IMG/VR virus record: IMGVR_UViG_3300024518_006055 | Coordinates: 1-41,834 of that record | Length of the DNA stretch: 41,834 nt | Direction: 5' to 3' (one strand) | Source: a virus | In this document: in pieces, positions 2,932 to 37,112 of the stretch | How positions within the stretch are numbered: the stretch's first letter is position 1 | Layout of the letters: the number at the start of each line of letters is the position of its first letter | Position numbers and translations under genes: made by a program | The notes under the pieces: generated by a model | What the model saw: the letters and a program-made list of their open reading frames with translations, nothing else | What the model was told of the DNA's origin: nothing | Databases searched by the model: none

Positions 2932-3239
2932 TGGCAATCCGCGACCTGACGGACGCGGAGCTTGACGCAGCCATATTCGCCGAGGTCTACGGATCGGCGG
3001 GCACCGCCGAGGCGTACACGTCGAGTCTCACGCTGGTCGAGGAGGCGATGGGCGGCGGTCTCGGCCTGTACTCATCGGGCGCGCAGCGGTATCGATGGCA
3101 CACTCTACAGTCTGACGGCACGGCATCGGTATCCCCAGCGCCAGCGGGCACAATGGTCTACGTCGAGGATCGCATCGGAACCACGGCGGCGAGACGCTAC
3201 GCAGAGGCCCTGCTCGAAGCCGGGAGAGGTGACGCGTAA
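2931..3239 (+). CDS. hypothetical protein
   Basis: This encodes 102 residues, with an acidic helical N-terminus (DLTDAELDAAIFAEV), a Gly-rich centre, and a C-terminal helix (RRYAEALLEAGRG). Start and stop overlap the flanking genes by one base each (TAATG), so translational coupling is likely. No Shine-Dalgarno is obvious at its own start, which fits coupling. It sits among virion genes and may be a minor structural protein. No known motif is seen. Confidence 0.55.
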   Translation: MAIRDLTDAELDAAIFAEVYGSAGTAEAYTSSLTLVEEAMGGGLGLYSSGAQRYRWHTLQSDGTASVSPAPAGTMVYVEDRIGTTAARRYAEALLEAGRGDA

Positions 3240-4831
3240 TGGCAATCGCTATCATTGCTGGACCCACCACCGCCACGGGTGCCGAAGATAGCAGCTTCAG
3301 CATCGCCAGCGGCATCGCGAACCACGCCGGGACTGACAAGTGCCTCGTGGTGTGCCTGACGTGGCTGGCGGAGTCGAATATCACCGTCAGCAGCGTGGAA
3401 CTCGCAGGAACGAGCTATGACTTCACAAGCGCTGGGGTACAGCAGCACGACTATGCCACGGGCGTCGGCTCGTCGATCTGGTACGTCGTAGACCCCGGAC
3501 AGGTGTCGAATGCGGTTGCGGTGAACTTCAGCGGCGATGCGACATTCTTCGTCGCCGCGTCGATGCTGCTCTCAGGCGTCGACCAGACAACCCCGGCACT
3601 CGCCGCCGTCGGAGCCTTCGGGAGTGGCTCCGCACCCTCGGTCAGCATCTCATCGACTGCCGCGACGACAGACGACTGGGGCATCGATGCCGTCTCGCAT
3701 ACAGAGTCGACGATGTCATCGGCTGGCAGCGGCCAGGTCAACACGTGGGGAACGGCGGCAGAAGATGACCAGATGGGGGCGGGCTCCACGAAGCCAGCCT
3801 CGGCGGGTAGCGGTGTCACCCTATCGTGGTCGATGGGATCGTCGGCCAATTGGACGTCGCAGGGCCTGTTGGTCCAAGCAGCCGCCGCCGGAGGCACGAC
3901 GCACGCTCTCGCGGGGGCGGCTACCGGGACGGGCTCGACGGCTGGAGCGGCGAGAAGGGTCCAGTCTCTGGGGGGGGCGGGAGCCGCGAGCGGTGGCGCA
4001 GGCGGATCGCTGGGCTTGCGTCTGTCGTTCGCGGGATCAGCGGTAGTGACATGTAGCGGAGCCGGTGATGCCCTCTTGGCGAAGGGTGTCGCTGGTTCTG
4101 CTGCGGGCGCGGGCTCTGCGAGCGGGGACCTGACCCGCACGACTGACCAGCTAGCGGGGACCGCGACCGGTACGGGAGGCGCGGCCGGGGACCTGACCCG
4201 CACGATCGACCAGCTAGCGGGGACCGCGACCGGTACGGGAGGCGCGGCCGGGGACCTGACCCGCACGATCGACCAGCTTGTGGGGGCTGCCTCCGCAGCG
4301 GGTTCTGCGTTGGGATCTATCTCGGCGCAGACTCGGGCACTCTCCGGTACCGCTACGGCGACGGGCGCAGTTGAGGCGAGTACCAGCGAGAGCTTCCCGC
4401 TCGCAGGTGCCGCCTCCGCGACGGGTGCTGTGTCCGCTTCGATGTCCCCGTTGCCTTTTCGCGGGTCAGCGTCCGCCGCTTCCGGGTCGACTGGCGACCT
4501 CGTGCGGACTACGGACCAGCTTTCGGGGGTGGCGACCGCTGACGGTGCGGCTGTCGGTGACCTGACGCTCCTGGAAGTCGATCAGCTATCAGGCATCGCA
4601 ACCGGGACGGCAGGCGCGGCGGGTGCTGTCGTCCTCACAAGCCGAATCTCGGGTGTCGCAACCGGTACGGCAGGCGCGGCGGGTGCTGTCGTCCAGGTTG
4701 TCAACCTGTCGCCTGTTCACTGGTCGGTGGTGATGATCGACCAGGTAGAAGCAAACGTCGTCATGGTCGACAAGATCGAGGCCTCTATCACGATGGACGA
4801 CGAGAATCCGATTGACTTGCAGCAGGGATAG
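3239..4831 (+). CDS. repeat-rich tail fibre/adhesin-like protein
   Basis: This 530-residue protein has three parts. Residues 1 to about 220 resemble a beta-sandwich module found in phage and secreted proteins (hydrophobic LVVCLTWL and IWYVVDPG strands, SGVDQTTPAL turn, closing SQGLLVQAAAA). Residues about 220-490 are low-complexity Ala/Gly/Thr repeats such as QLAGTATGTGGAAGDLTRT. The C-terminus (from about residue 495) has alternating VVMIDQVEANVVMVDKIEAS strands. GGAGAGG precedes the ATG. An elongated or surface-displayed virion protein is likely; the exact role is inferred. Confidence 0.6.
   Translation: MAIAIIAGPTTATGAEDSSFSIASGIANHAGTDKCLVVCLTWLAESNITVSSVELAGTSYDFTSAGVQQHDYATGVGSSIWYVVDPGQVSNAVAVNFSGDATFFVAASMLLSGVDQTTPALAAVGAFGSGSAPSVSISSTAATTDDWGIDAVSHTESTMSSAGSGQVNTWGTAAEDDQMGAGSTKPASAGSGVTLSWSMGSSANWTSQGLLVQAAAAGGTTHALAGAATGTGSTAGAARRVQSLGGAGAASGGAGGSLGLRLSFAGSAVVTCSGAGDALLAKGVAGSAAGAGSASGDLTRTTDQLAGTATGTGGAAGDLTRTIDQLAGTATGTGGAAGDLTRTIDQLVGAASAAGSALGSISAQTRALSGTATATGAVEASTSESFPLAGAASATGAVSASMSPLPFRGSASAASGSTGDLVRTTDQLSGVATADGAAVGDLTLLEVDQLSGIATGTAGAAGAVVLTSRISGVATGTAGAAGAVVQVVNLSPVHWSVVMIDQVEANVVMVDKIEASITMDDENPIDLQQG
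4124..4278 (+). repeat. 63-bp tandem repeat inside the adhesin-like gene
   Basis: Two nearly identical 63-bp units (4124-4186 and 4187-4249) are followed by a third partial unit from 4250. Each unit starts GGGGACCTGACCCGCACGA and encodes 21 residues, so the array stays in frame. Further degenerate copies continue on both sides (for example 4597-4637 and 4655-4694). The near-identity of the units points to recent duplication or slippage, which would change the length of the repeat domain. Confidence 0.9.
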
Positions 4832-23477: not shown

Positions 23478-24431
23478 TCAAGACGGTTGCTCGATATGTG
23501 TGATCTTCGTGGTTGTTCGACCACCGCCTTTCTTGATCTCGAGTAGCCAGTCGCCGACGACCAGCTTGGTGTCGTCCTGAGCTTTCGCCCACTCTTTGAT
23601 ACGCTTGTCGGCTTTTGCGAAGACTTTGTGCTCAGGCTGCGAGCACTCGCGGGCCATGAGCAGCCCGGCGATCTCCTCAACCTCGATGAACTTGATCGGT
23701 GGCTCACCCACCCTCGCAGGCAGGCACGACCCGAGGTGCTCACAGCGCCCGCAGACGTCCTCGTCCCACGGGATACGATCGGGCGGCTCGTCGCACTCGA
23801 CCGCCAGGTTGATATCCTCGGCGCGACGGATCAGTTCCTCGCCGAGATCGTAGTCCAACTCGATGACGACCTGCGCGAGCTCCCCGGTCTGCTTGTTCTT
23901 GCAGAGCAGACAGCCGACTGGGCTCGCCTTCATGAGCATATATAGAACGAGCTGGCCGCAGTACTTCTTGAGCCAACTCTTCGAGCCGAAGGCCTCCTCG
24001 ACTTCCGCCCACTCGTAGCTCGCCGCCCCGCGCTTGAAGATGCCCTGCCAGATGTTGCCGCTCATGCTTTTGACGTCGACCGGGAAGGCTTCGACCGGCG
24101 CACCCGCTTCGCTCTCGGTGCAGACCATGGCGTCAACGTGGCCGGTGATCTGGTACTCGGGCCACTCGAGAGAGACCTGCTGCTCTATCACCTGGAACCC
24201 GGCGTCTTCAAGGTCGCGGAGTACCTGGCGCTCGTGGAGATCTCCTTCCTGGAAGATCAGCTTCAGGGTATCGTTGGGCTCGGCCGCGGCGCTCCACGCA
24301 GTGCGTGCATAAAACAGAGATCTTGAGCAGTCGTGTCCCAGCGCGCTCGCCCGGTTCGACCGGCACGGAAATTTCTTGTACCGGGCGAGGCGTGCCTTTT
24401 GAACCGCGCCGGCGATGTCGGGGACCTTCAT
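23478..24431 (-). CDS. Cas4/RecB-type nuclease with four-Cys cluster
   Basis: This 317-residue PD-(D/E)XK nuclease has GHVDAMV (Asp near 100), PVDVKSM (Asp 119, Lys 121) and a QLVLY motif (Gln 160, Tyr 164), the order seen in RecB/Cas4 nucleases. One Cys near residue 35 and the cluster C227xxC230xxxxxC236 suggest an iron-sulphur cluster as in Cas4 and AddB. In phages such exonucleases resect DNA for annealing. It is the last gene of the leftward operon, coupled (ATGA) to a 53-aa gene and then an annealing-type protein. Confidence 0.8.
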   Translation of the reverse strand: MKVPDIAGAVQKARLARYKKFPCRSNRASALGHDCSRSLFYARTAWSAAAEPNDTLKLIFQEGDLHERQVLRDLEDAGFQVIEQQVSLEWPEYQITGHVDAMVCTESEAGAPVEAFPVDVKSMSGNIWQGIFKRGAASYEWAEVEEAFGSKSWLKKYCGQLVLYMLMKASPVGCLLCKNKQTGELAQVVIELDYDLGEELIRRAEDINLAVECDEPPDRIPWDEDVCGRCEHLGSCLPARVGEPPIKFIEVEEIAGLLMARECSQPEHKVFAKADKRIKEWAKAQDDTKLVVGDWLLEIKKGGGRTTTKITHIEQPS

Positions 24432-28145: not shown

Positions 28146-28147
28146 CT

Positions 28148-28167
28148 TTCATGAAGCCTTCATGAAG
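28148..28167. promoter_or_regulatory. tandem 11-bp palindromic operator-like repeats, TTCATGAAG
   Basis: TTCATGAAG occurs at 28148-28156 and 28159-28167, 11 bp apart; the core TTCATGAA is a perfect palindrome. TTGACT at 28142-28147 could be a -35 box, but a good -10 is not evident. The pair resembles the tandem site at 25796 in sequence and spacing. It lies at the start of the non-coding leader in front of the rightward early operon, so it may control that transcript. Confidence 0.6.
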
Positions 28168-28189
28168 ATGAGGGCATGAAACCGAGTTG

Positions 28190-28298
28190 CCACCCGGTTA
28201 TCAGCGACGCCAAGAGGACGGCAGGATCGTCTCAAACTTCCCGCCGCGTCGGCCCCACACCGATGCCTCACGCTGGTTATGTAGCCGGGTGGTTTTTT
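28190..28298 (+). ncRNA. candidate structured RNA closed by a terminator-like stem
   Basis: CCACCCGG (28190-28197) pairs perfectly with CCGGGTGG (28285-28292), followed at once by T6 (28293-28298). Inside, CAGCG (28202-28206) pairs with CGCTG (28271-28275), and GACGC (28206-28210) can pair with GCGTC (28246-28250). The whole could fold into a stacked, about 100-nt RNA ending as an intrinsic terminator. It lies between the tandem operator and the pentamer array. It may be a regulatory RNA or a leader attenuator. No known class is recognised. Confidence 0.5.
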
Positions 28299-28326: not shown

Positions 28327-29004
28327 GGAGCGGAGACGAAGGGATGCGAACCGAGTGGAACTGATACGAACCGCCCAAAGGGAGGGGAATGGAAGCGAGT
28401 GGACCTGAAACGATCGGAATGGACAGGAAGGGAGGCGACGCGACAGGACTGGATCCGAAGCGAACCGCACAAGAAGAACCAAAGCGAGCCGACGGGAACC
28501 GACGGGAGACGATAGGACTCGAACGGACCAGACAGGAGAGGAGTGGATCTGAAGCGAACCGCACAAAGCGAGCCAAGACGAAAGGACTGGAGATCACTGG
28601 AGTGGAGCCGATGCGAGACGAGCCGACCCGACACGACCCGAGACGAAAGGAACCGCACAAAGGGAAGGGATGGGACTTGATCCGACGTGATCCGACACGA
28701 TCGGAATCGATCCGATGCGAACCGCGCAAAGCGAAACTAGTGGATGGGAGACGAAAGGAGTCGACGCGAGTGGAAAGGACACGAGACGAACCGCACAAAG
28801 CGAACCGACTCGACGCGAGGGGAGTCGAAAGGCTTGGACAGGAGACGACGGGACACGAAACGAGTCGCACAAAACGAAAGGACTGGAGTCGATTTGATGC
28901 GACGCGACTGGAAGGGAGGGGAAGGGACGCGATCCGAAGCGAACCGCGCAAAGCGATCGGATACGAAGTGACGACGAAGCGACTGGACGCCAGGCGAGAC
29001 GAAA
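28327..29004. repeat. SGANN pentamer array with eight 9-mer separators
   Basis: About 678 bp are built of consecutive 5-bp units S-G-A-N-N (for example GGAGC, CGAAG, GGATG), about 121 in all, with GA kept in nearly every unit and the last two bases variable. The 9-mer CGCRCAAAG (one CGCCCAAAG, one CGCACAAGA, one CGCACAAAA) interrupts at 28372, 28466, 28560, 28654, 28723, 28792, 28866 and 28945. Between separators there are exactly 17, 17, 17, 12, 12, 13 and 14 pentamers. Long open frames here are artefacts: on the - strand, NNTCS units cannot form a stop in any frame. The separator spacings (94, 94, 94, 69, 69, 74, 79) do not preserve a reading frame, so it is probably non-coding. Confidence 0.95.
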
Positions 29005-29047: not shown

Positions 29048-29653
29048 ATGTACACACACCTATACGCACGGATCAAGGGAACCGTACCGCAGTTGCAGAA
29101 CAATGGGCTCCGTAAGGACCCGCTCTACTACTGGACGAAGCAGCTCGGGAAGATCTCCAAGAAGACGAAGAAGACTGACGAAGATCACATGGCCATGCGC
29201 GAGGCGGAGTTCAAGGGCTCGCTCTACTGCCTCGACGACGAGAAGGGCGGGCCGATCTACTGGCCCTCGGATAACATCCACGCCTGCATCAAGACCGCCG
29301 CCAAGATGAAGAAGCTCGGCAAGGTGGTCGACACCGCGGTCGTCGTCAAGTCGCCCGGCGGTATGCTCCATCACAAGGGGCCGAAGACTCGCGACGCACT
29401 CTGGGACGCCGGCGAGGAGTTCCGCCTCTTGAAGCCCACGAAGCGCGGTATCATGAGCTGCCGGCCGTGCTTCCGTGAGTGGGAGGTCGAGTTCTCACTG
29501 ATCTTCCTCGAGGAGCTGCTCAACGCCGAGGACATGAAGCAGCTGATCCTCGACGCCGGCCGCTTCATCGGCCTCAGCGACTGGCCCCGACGCTACGGTC
29601 TCTTCGAGGTCGTCGAGTTCAAGAACGAGGAGGTCGAAGTCCATGTCCGCTGA
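29048..29653 (+). CDS. conserved-looking phage protein, first gene of early operon
   Basis: This encodes 201 residues, with CAAGGAGAA before the ATG. It has DPLYYWTKQLGKISKKTKKTDED, an LYCLDDEKGGPIYWPSDNIHACIKTAAKM block, and a C-terminal LSDWPRRYGLFEVVEF. Proteins with this general layout occur in phage early regions near recombination or replication genes, but I cannot name a function. The pentamer array is its leader. The next gene overlaps by 11 nt. Confidence 0.65.
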   Translation: MYTHLYARIKGTVPQLQNNGLRKDPLYYWTKQLGKISKKTKKTDEDHMAMREAEFKGSLYCLDDEKGGPIYWPSDNIHACIKTAAKMKKLGKVVDTAVVVKSPGGMLHHKGPKTRDALWDAGEEFRLLKPTKRGIMSCRPCFREWEVEFSLIFLEELLNAEDMKQLILDAGRFIGLSDWPRRYGLFEVVEFKNEEVEVHVR

Positions 29654-30116
29654 CGCGCAGTTGCCAGTGAAGCAGAAGGAAGTCCTCGCGATGACGGTCG
29701 AGCACTTCAAGGGAGAGCTCGGGCCGGGAACCTATATCCCACCGGAGACCGTCGAGAAGATCGTCGGCTCCAAGCGCCACCTCGCCGAGTACTCCCTGGG
29801 TGTGACGAAGGCCGCGAAGGCGATCTCTGCCTACGTCGAGGTGCTCACGGGCAAGGCCGTCTGGGTGCGCCAGCAGGACTACGGCATCCGCATCCTCGAG
29901 CCCAAGGAGGCCGGCGAGCACAGTATGCACGTCGCCTACTCGAAGCTCGACCAAGCCGACAAGGCTTTCACCCGCGGCGTGGCGTGTGTCTCGCCCAGCG
30001 ACTTCGACAGCGACGCCGAACGCGATAGCTTCTACGCTCGGCAGCGGCAGCTCGCGCTGATCATCATGCACACCAAGAACGTGCAGGTCGCCGACGTACC
30101 CGGCGGTAGCATCTGA
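29643..30116 (+). CDS. early-operon hypothetical protein
   Basis: This 157-residue protein has GAGGAGG upstream of the ATG, inside the previous gene. It is mixed helix/strand: KQKEVLAMTVEHFKGELG, TYIPPETVEKIVGSKRHLAEY, GVTKAAKAISAYVEVLTGKAVWVR, and a C-terminal RQRQLALIIMHTKNVQVADV. No catalytic motif stands out. It may act together with the 29048 product, with which it is coupled. The stop overlaps the next start (TGATG). Confidence 0.6.
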   Translation: MSADAQLPVKQKEVLAMTVEHFKGELGPGTYIPPETVEKIVGSKRHLAEYSLGVTKAAKAISAYVEVLTGKAVWVRQQDYGIRILEPKEAGEHSMHVAYSKLDQADKAFTRGVACVSPSDFDSDAERDSFYARQRQLALIIMHTKNVQVADVPGGSI

Positions 30117-36845: not shown

Positions 36846-37112
36846 TCAGCTACGGGCGGCGTCGCAGGCGGCGTCGCGGGCGGCGTCGCGGGCGGCGTTG
36901 TAGGCGGTGCGGGCGGTGTGGTAGGCGGTGCGGGCGGCGTCGCGGGCGTCGTAGGCATCGCAGACGGCGGTGCGGGCGTCGCTGTAGTCGACGAATGCGT
37001 CGCGGGCGGCGGCGCCGGCGGCTTCGAGGGCGTCGGTCGTGGTCGTGGTCGTGGTCGTCATCGTCTCGGTCTCGGTCTCCTGTCGCAGTCGGTCTGACTT
37101 GTCACTCGCCAT
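36846..37112 (-). CDS. Ala/Asp-rich four-residue repeat protein
   Basis: This encodes 88 residues from ATG 37112 (GGGAGA plus the AATCTGACC leader upstream); ATG 37061 is an alternative start with its own CAGGAGA leader. After a run of Thr, the C-terminal 55 residues repeat ARDA/ARTA-like units (ARTAYHTARTAYNAARDAA) every four residues, coded by 12-bp GCGGCGTCGCGG-type repeats. The product is likely a long helix with charged faces. Function is unknown. Confidence 0.5.
   Translation of the reverse strand: MASDKSDRLRQETETETMTTTTTTTTDALEAAGAAARDAFVDYSDARTAVCDAYDARDAARTAYHTARTAYNAARDAARDAACDAARS

Follow-up and report, generated by a model that had tools for sequence, protein, structure and literature searches.

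The question raised by this locus is what kind of element is formed by a 678-bp tract of pentamers in which a GA dinucleotide is held almost constant while the last two bases are nearly free. The tract lies in a viral contig of 41,834 nucleotides (IMG/VR record IMGVR_UViG_3300024518_006055), which was analysed at its full length and is called the window here. Our data indicate that it is very probably a VIPR locus, that is, a functioning guide array together with its Vipr and Vap proteins. VIPR is an RNA-guided system first described in a 2026 preprint, which in its main description lists as components the ancestral RAMP protein Vipr, a vap gene and vrRNAs built of YNNGG repeats; DNA is recognised through the NN pairs of these repeats, one base being skipped between pairs (PMC13142463). 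The same description words the scaffold as 'GGY/NN motifs, or a related consensus', distinguishes seven types, reports several array architectures and assigns the VIPR of phage SUSP1, whose Vipr is the tested one, to type II (PMC13142463).

The array is highly regular (Table 1). Re-measurement agreed exactly with the preliminary description in the position of the array, the eight separators and their spacings of 94, 94, 94, 69, 69, 74 and 79 bp, and most of its block sizes held as well; only the second of the blocks given as 17 pentamers consists of 15 pentamers and a 19-nt separator. Among the 113 in-register units, position 2 is G in 110 and position 3 is A in 112, while the first base (C57, G47, T8, A1) follows S as a strong preference and not as the rule that had been proposed. 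Positions 4 and 5 are nearly even in composition (A34 C30 G29 T20 and C30 A30 G30 T23) and all 16 NN dinucleotides are present, in line with the claim that these two bases are almost free. The scaffold is lost in a few pentamers of blocks 2-6 (AGACA, CAAGA, TCACT, CTAGT, GGCTT). Pairs of GA at a lag of 5 number 99, where 2000 dinucleotide-shuffled sequences give 23.8 on average (sd 4.2) and at most 41, and the best 300-bp segment holds 45 of them in the array versus 6 elsewhere in the contig. Further GC-rich tandem repeats, which are probably coding, occur at 36855-37035 and 4121-4285 (12/21/42-bp units of the GGCGGCGTCGCA type and a 63-bp repeat).

Table 1. Features of the pentamer locus in coordinates of the window.
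Feature	Position	Strand	Remarks
Long stem-loop, then T-run	28189..28293	+	just 5' of the array; ends in GTGGTTTTTT
Pentamer array	28327..29004	+	678 bp; ends 43 bp before vipr
g0	28327..28371	+	putative vrRNA block, 9 pentamers, short
Separators CGCRCAAAG, n = 8	28372..28953	+	9 nt each, except 19 nt at 28466; starts at 28372, 28466, 28560, 28654, 28723, 28792, 28866 and 28945
g1	28381..28465	+	putative vrRNA block, 17 pentamers
g2	28485..28559	+	putative vrRNA block, 15 pentamers
g3	28569..28653	+	putative vrRNA block, 17 pentamers, two degenerate
g4	28663..28722	+	putative vrRNA block, 12 pentamers
g5	28732..28791	+	putative vrRNA block, 12 pentamers
g6	28801..28865	+	putative vrRNA block, 13 pentamers
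g7	28875..28944	+	putative vrRNA block, 14 pentamers
g8	28954..29004	+	degenerate last block, 1-nt frame slip at ~28974
vipr	29048..29653	+	201 aa, RAMP (Cas7-like), PHROG_4652, E 7.7e-40
vap1-like accessory gene	29643..30116	+	157 aa, 11-bp overlap with vipr

In a pairwise comparison of the guides, no pair had four or more NN in common at aligned positions. This bears out the earlier view that the blocks are not copies of one another and supports patterning by function instead of duplication. The first base showed no clear dependence on the neighbouring NN (p 0.05-0.79), and S was therefore rejected as a carrier of information. With separators of 9 nt and spacers constrained at three of five positions the array is not CRISPR, and its NN entropy is too high for a simple microsatellite, a class that makes up most of the low-entropy matches to the pattern; both exclusions had been anticipated from the letters. 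The 9-nt separator may be parsed into an SGCNN unit followed by a linker of 4 nt, and it would mark the guide boundaries. A conserved hairpin was not found in the separators: the stem of the candidate CGC-ACAAA-GCG is broken in several of them, whose 3' side reads GGG or ACG. Likewise, three stretches of the array that were folded did not exceed their shuffles (z +1.3, -1.5 and -0.8), so that a structured 3' tail is not evident; Rfam matched nothing in the window or in three array loci, and a tRNA/tmRNA search returned zero hits in seven array contigs. Just upstream, the segment 28183-28300 reaches a folding energy of -48 kcal/mol (z -2.97), and the stem-loop within it appears from its sequence to be a terminator-like or leader structure. 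In addition, tandem TTCATGAA palindromes (28147-28172, TTGACTTTCATGAAGCCTTCATGAAG) adjoin a -35-like hexamer 150 bp 5' of the array and are a possible operator of the operon.

The array is the leader of the operon beginning at 29048, as had been proposed, and its linkage to the first gene of this operon extends to dozens of phages. When IMG/VR was searched for exact matches to twelve SGANN triplets, 69 contigs were found, of which about 30 are low in NN entropy and mostly microsatellites; the others have an NN entropy of about 2.5-3.9 bits of 4 and give, as 38 loci plus the window, 39 high-entropy arrays. A PHROG_4652 homolog of the window's first downstream protein is present at 33 of these 39 loci, counted as contigs and not as independent lineages since some are overlapping copies of one virus, and it lies on the array strand in 33 of 33. 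In the reverse direction, the protein profile retrieved 80 contigs, and 52 of the 57 examined (window included) carry 5-nt arrays beside the vipr gene, with GGC, GGT or GGA scaffolds on the sense strand and positions both downstream and upstream of the gene. Thus, where the preliminary description had considered that relatives might show ordinary coding sequence, they carry the same type of array, and the open reading frames that run through the window's array are without a PHROG match. The gene also occurs in named phages, namely Felixounavirus (wV8 and SUSP1 among others), Gordonia, Mycobacterium and Pseudomonas phages, and GGY-type pentamers adjoin it in those inspected (wV8, MakoManhole, LESphi2, Medea1). 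One further record, GU169904 ('Staphylococcus phage SA1', L086), bears a Felixounavirus-type VIPR locus, and its host label may be wrong. Close relatives of the window were not found in IMG/VR via vipr or terminase, the structural region had no match in the phage DNA collection, and an attempt with the family profile on GTDB genomes found no relative.

PHROG_4652 is a family of unknown function. The AlphaFold2 model of the window Vipr, built with 64 homologs, has a pLDDT of 91.8 and a pTM of 0.86; its best 50 PDB matches all belong to CRISPR effector complexes, and nearly every chain is of the Csm3, Cmr or type VII Cas7 type, with a top match at E 3e-5 and probability 1.0. According to this model, the protein is predicted to fold as a Cas7/Csm3-type RAMP. 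It aligns with SUSP1 Vipr at E 4e-34. The vap1-like gene matches a profile of 57 vap proteins, built without the window, at E 1e-7 and by hhalign at E 1.7e-4 (probability 50%), and judged by this vap sequence the system is probably type II-like. The window Vipr is nonetheless unusual: its G-loop reads DWPRR where DWRPR is near-invariant (RP to PR), GLF replaces a near-invariant GRF, and there is a 3-residue gap. In a tree of 81 Viprs it stands alone on a long branch, close to other xGA systems in a part of the tree that is not resolved. The xGA label requires at least five changes on this tree, which implies that the third scaffold base (A versus C/T) was switched repeatedly. Near the window, the A type is tracked by W72 and S177 (numbered as in the window Vipr; G-loop), with L042 and L005 as exceptions; as residues that distinguish GGA from GGY proteins, these two positions are only leads and are confounded by ancestry.

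Since VIPR homology, fold, vap and linkage coincide, each block is best read as a vrRNA guide with SGA as scaffold and NN as read-out, and the linkage of the array to a RAMP leads to the expectation of a RAMP with a 5-nt RNA footprint that reads NN, as the VIPR description says. If the locus works as the preprint describes for VIPR, it would be transcribed, its RNA would be processed and form an RNP, and rival phages would be repressed. Transcription of the array's + strand would yield a precursor that contains about eight vrRNAs and precedes vipr and vap, and Vipr would oligomerise on each guide with one subunit per five nucleotides, holding the SGA triplet and exposing the two variable bases for pairing. 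The target would be double-stranded DNA in which a single base separates each NN pair from the next (NNxNNxNN); NN would typically correspond to the first two bases of successive codons and the wobble base would be skipped. Bound to such a target, the complex may repress genes that belong to competing phages or prophages in the host they share, aided by the DNA-binding Vap.

The decoding rule itself could be examined in a relative. Three guides were read from the P. aeruginosa prophage LESphi2 (guide region L175:5570-5930, OQ594955) and compared with five other P. aeruginosa phages (L176, L177, L178, L179 and L180). With a one-base skip, vrRNA1 matches 20 of 22 bases in F_MX1987sp and CF3a, vrRNA2 matches 21 of 22 in F_MX1987sp, and vrRNA3 matches 20 of 22 in F10, JBD68 and CF54a, the CF54a site lying within an annotated Mnt-like regulator. 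Skips of 0 and 2 as well as shuffled guides attain only 15-17 of 22, and the full matches at skip 3 are the array itself. The skipped base is the wobble position of an open frame in the targets, and the phages vary there (GAC GAG CGC, GAT GAA CGC). These three guides with named targets independently support the one-base-skip rule of the preprint.

The guides of the window did not yield a target in its 41.8 kb, where skip-1 matches did not rise above shuffled guides and self-targeting was accordingly rejected, nor in ~1.9 Mb of related loci, in IMG/VR for g1, g3, g4 and g7 or in GTDB genomes for g1; these scans demand 8-10 exact NN in a row and would miss a target mismatched inside the core. 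Eight matches to an 8-NN core extended no better than chance. As no phage in the collections is closely related to this one, its competitors have probably gone unsampled as well. Guides decoded to peptides gave no significant match, and the in-frame resemblance of g2 to a recombinase motif, ARTR[DE]YLTP[HQ][DE]V, was not substantiated. Across 127 SGA-class guides, NN fits codon positions 1-2 with a log-likelihood of 197, where a control that treats the bases as independent gives 88±24, and the pair formed across the scaffold by N2 and the following N1 scores -43 and shows no codon fit; this is a composition test that alone cannot separate skip lengths, and the seven guides of the window do not suffice for it by themselves. 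It lends indirect support to the view that SGA guides use the same code as GGY guides.

Other explanations of the locus have to be weighed against these data. Degenerate pentamers, the frame slip in the last block, the short first block and the odd residues in the Vipr G-loop would also be seen if the VIPR locus had decayed and array and Vipr were disused relics; since near-invariant residues are changed and the branch is long and isolated, an altered or lost function of this Vipr is possible. However, the middle G and the A of the scaffold are intact in 110 and 112 of 113 units, vipr and vap are open and overlapping, and the fold is predicted with high confidence, so that we consider decay improbable. 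Autoregulation of the TRAP type, in which ~100 triplets in the gene's own leader would serve as a multi-site RNA-binding leader and not as guides, deserves attention because the array is the 5' leader of vipr and a terminator-like structure lies just 5' of it. TRAP is a protein that binds (G/U)AG triplets in the trp leader, and its sites resemble the pattern of the window, in which a fixed triplet recurs every 5 nt with two free bases in between. Yet the arrays of relatives also lie downstream of the gene, the separators split the array into discrete blocks that differ in NN, the NN of the SGA class look like codon positions 1-2, and decoding of guides from this family has led to real targets. 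The product of the adjacent gene is a RAMP and not TRAP, the TRAP family was absent among the searched neighbours, and the triplet of the window is SGA, all of which leaves such a leader very unlikely.

The suggestion of a multi-site protein-binding array was thus right in spirit, as the transcript should carry many RAMP copies; the NN described as nearly free would be the information that specifies the target. A protein-coding repeat or a DNA-level element (replication origin, packaging or partition site) has hardly any probability left. ORFs of 260-306 aa do run open through the array, but they match no PHROG family and a 5-nt unit with free NN yields no constrained peptide, while the location on the vipr strand in all 33 loci fits RNA and not a strand-neutral DNA site. 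Neither the replication or packaging locus nor the RNA sponge of the preliminary description found support.

Read as a guide array with its Vipr and Vap, the locus belongs to a newly reported and possibly pre-CRISPR form of RNA-guided DNA recognition that phages aim at each other. Set against the main description in the preprint, it would be a new and divergent VIPR, with SGA for GGY, 9-nt separators for the structured tail and a very divergent Vipr. The packing of many guides into 678 bp without evident structured tails is useful for finding the roles of scaffold triplet and tail, and the repeated switch of the third base provides a natural set of Viprs in which to seek the residues that read the scaffold. 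It is tempting to speculate, though we consider this rather unlikely, that the scaffold triplet is an evolving compatibility code, switched several times between xGY and xGA, by which rival VIPRs cannot cross-load guides; the window, where the first base is relaxed, the G-loop is rearranged and guides lacking tails would be cut from a single precursor, might then represent an undescribed subtype.

Among related systems, the VIPR of Escherichia phage SUSP1 shares a RAMP protein (36% identical over 187 aa), an adjoining vap1-like gene and, on the operon's sense strand, 5-nt repeats that combine a constant triplet with a hypervariable NN. In contrast, the SUSP1 scaffold is GGY, and four ~100-nt vrRNAs with an invariant structured 3' tail are placed around the genes, whereas in the window about eight guides are packed compactly into a single array upstream of the genes and divided by 9-nt separators; the repeats per guide are 9-16 in SUSP1 and 12-17 in the full blocks of the window. 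The VIPRs of Pseudomonas prophages (LESphi2; P. fulva clade of PMC13142463) likewise have vipr followed by the vap gene and guides upstream, but use a GGC/GGT scaffold and longer tails between guides. The architecture of the window recurs in compact SGA arrays from IMG/VR (L004/L028, L034/L035, L019 and L043), with blocks of roughly 7-20 units and 9-nt separators that join an SGCNN unit to a linker of 4 nt; their separator letters differ (GGCTGTARY, GGCCGTARC, CGCAGTAAC and GGCAGTNNN) and their Viprs belong to other, distant clades. Many other SGA loci, unlike the window, have tails of 24-60 nt. tRNA-like elements with a T-arm and acceptor stem (e.g. GCTCGGATGGTCGCAGGTGGGGTTCGACTCCCCACCCGAGC) adjoin pentamer tracts at L079:1652-1692, 2984-3024 and 3101-3143 and at L026:6840-7170, where ARAGORN called no tRNA; they are possibly vrRNA 3' tails or processing signals. 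Apart from a lone Cas4-like exonuclease (23478-24431, - strand; PHROG_1990, E 2.8e-28), no cas effector or adaptation genes were found among the proteins searched. With class 1 CRISPR arrays and Cas7 the locus nevertheless shares a RAMP backbone protein and discrete guides with a common boundary element, the difference being identical repeats there and a discontinuous 5-nt code in the window.
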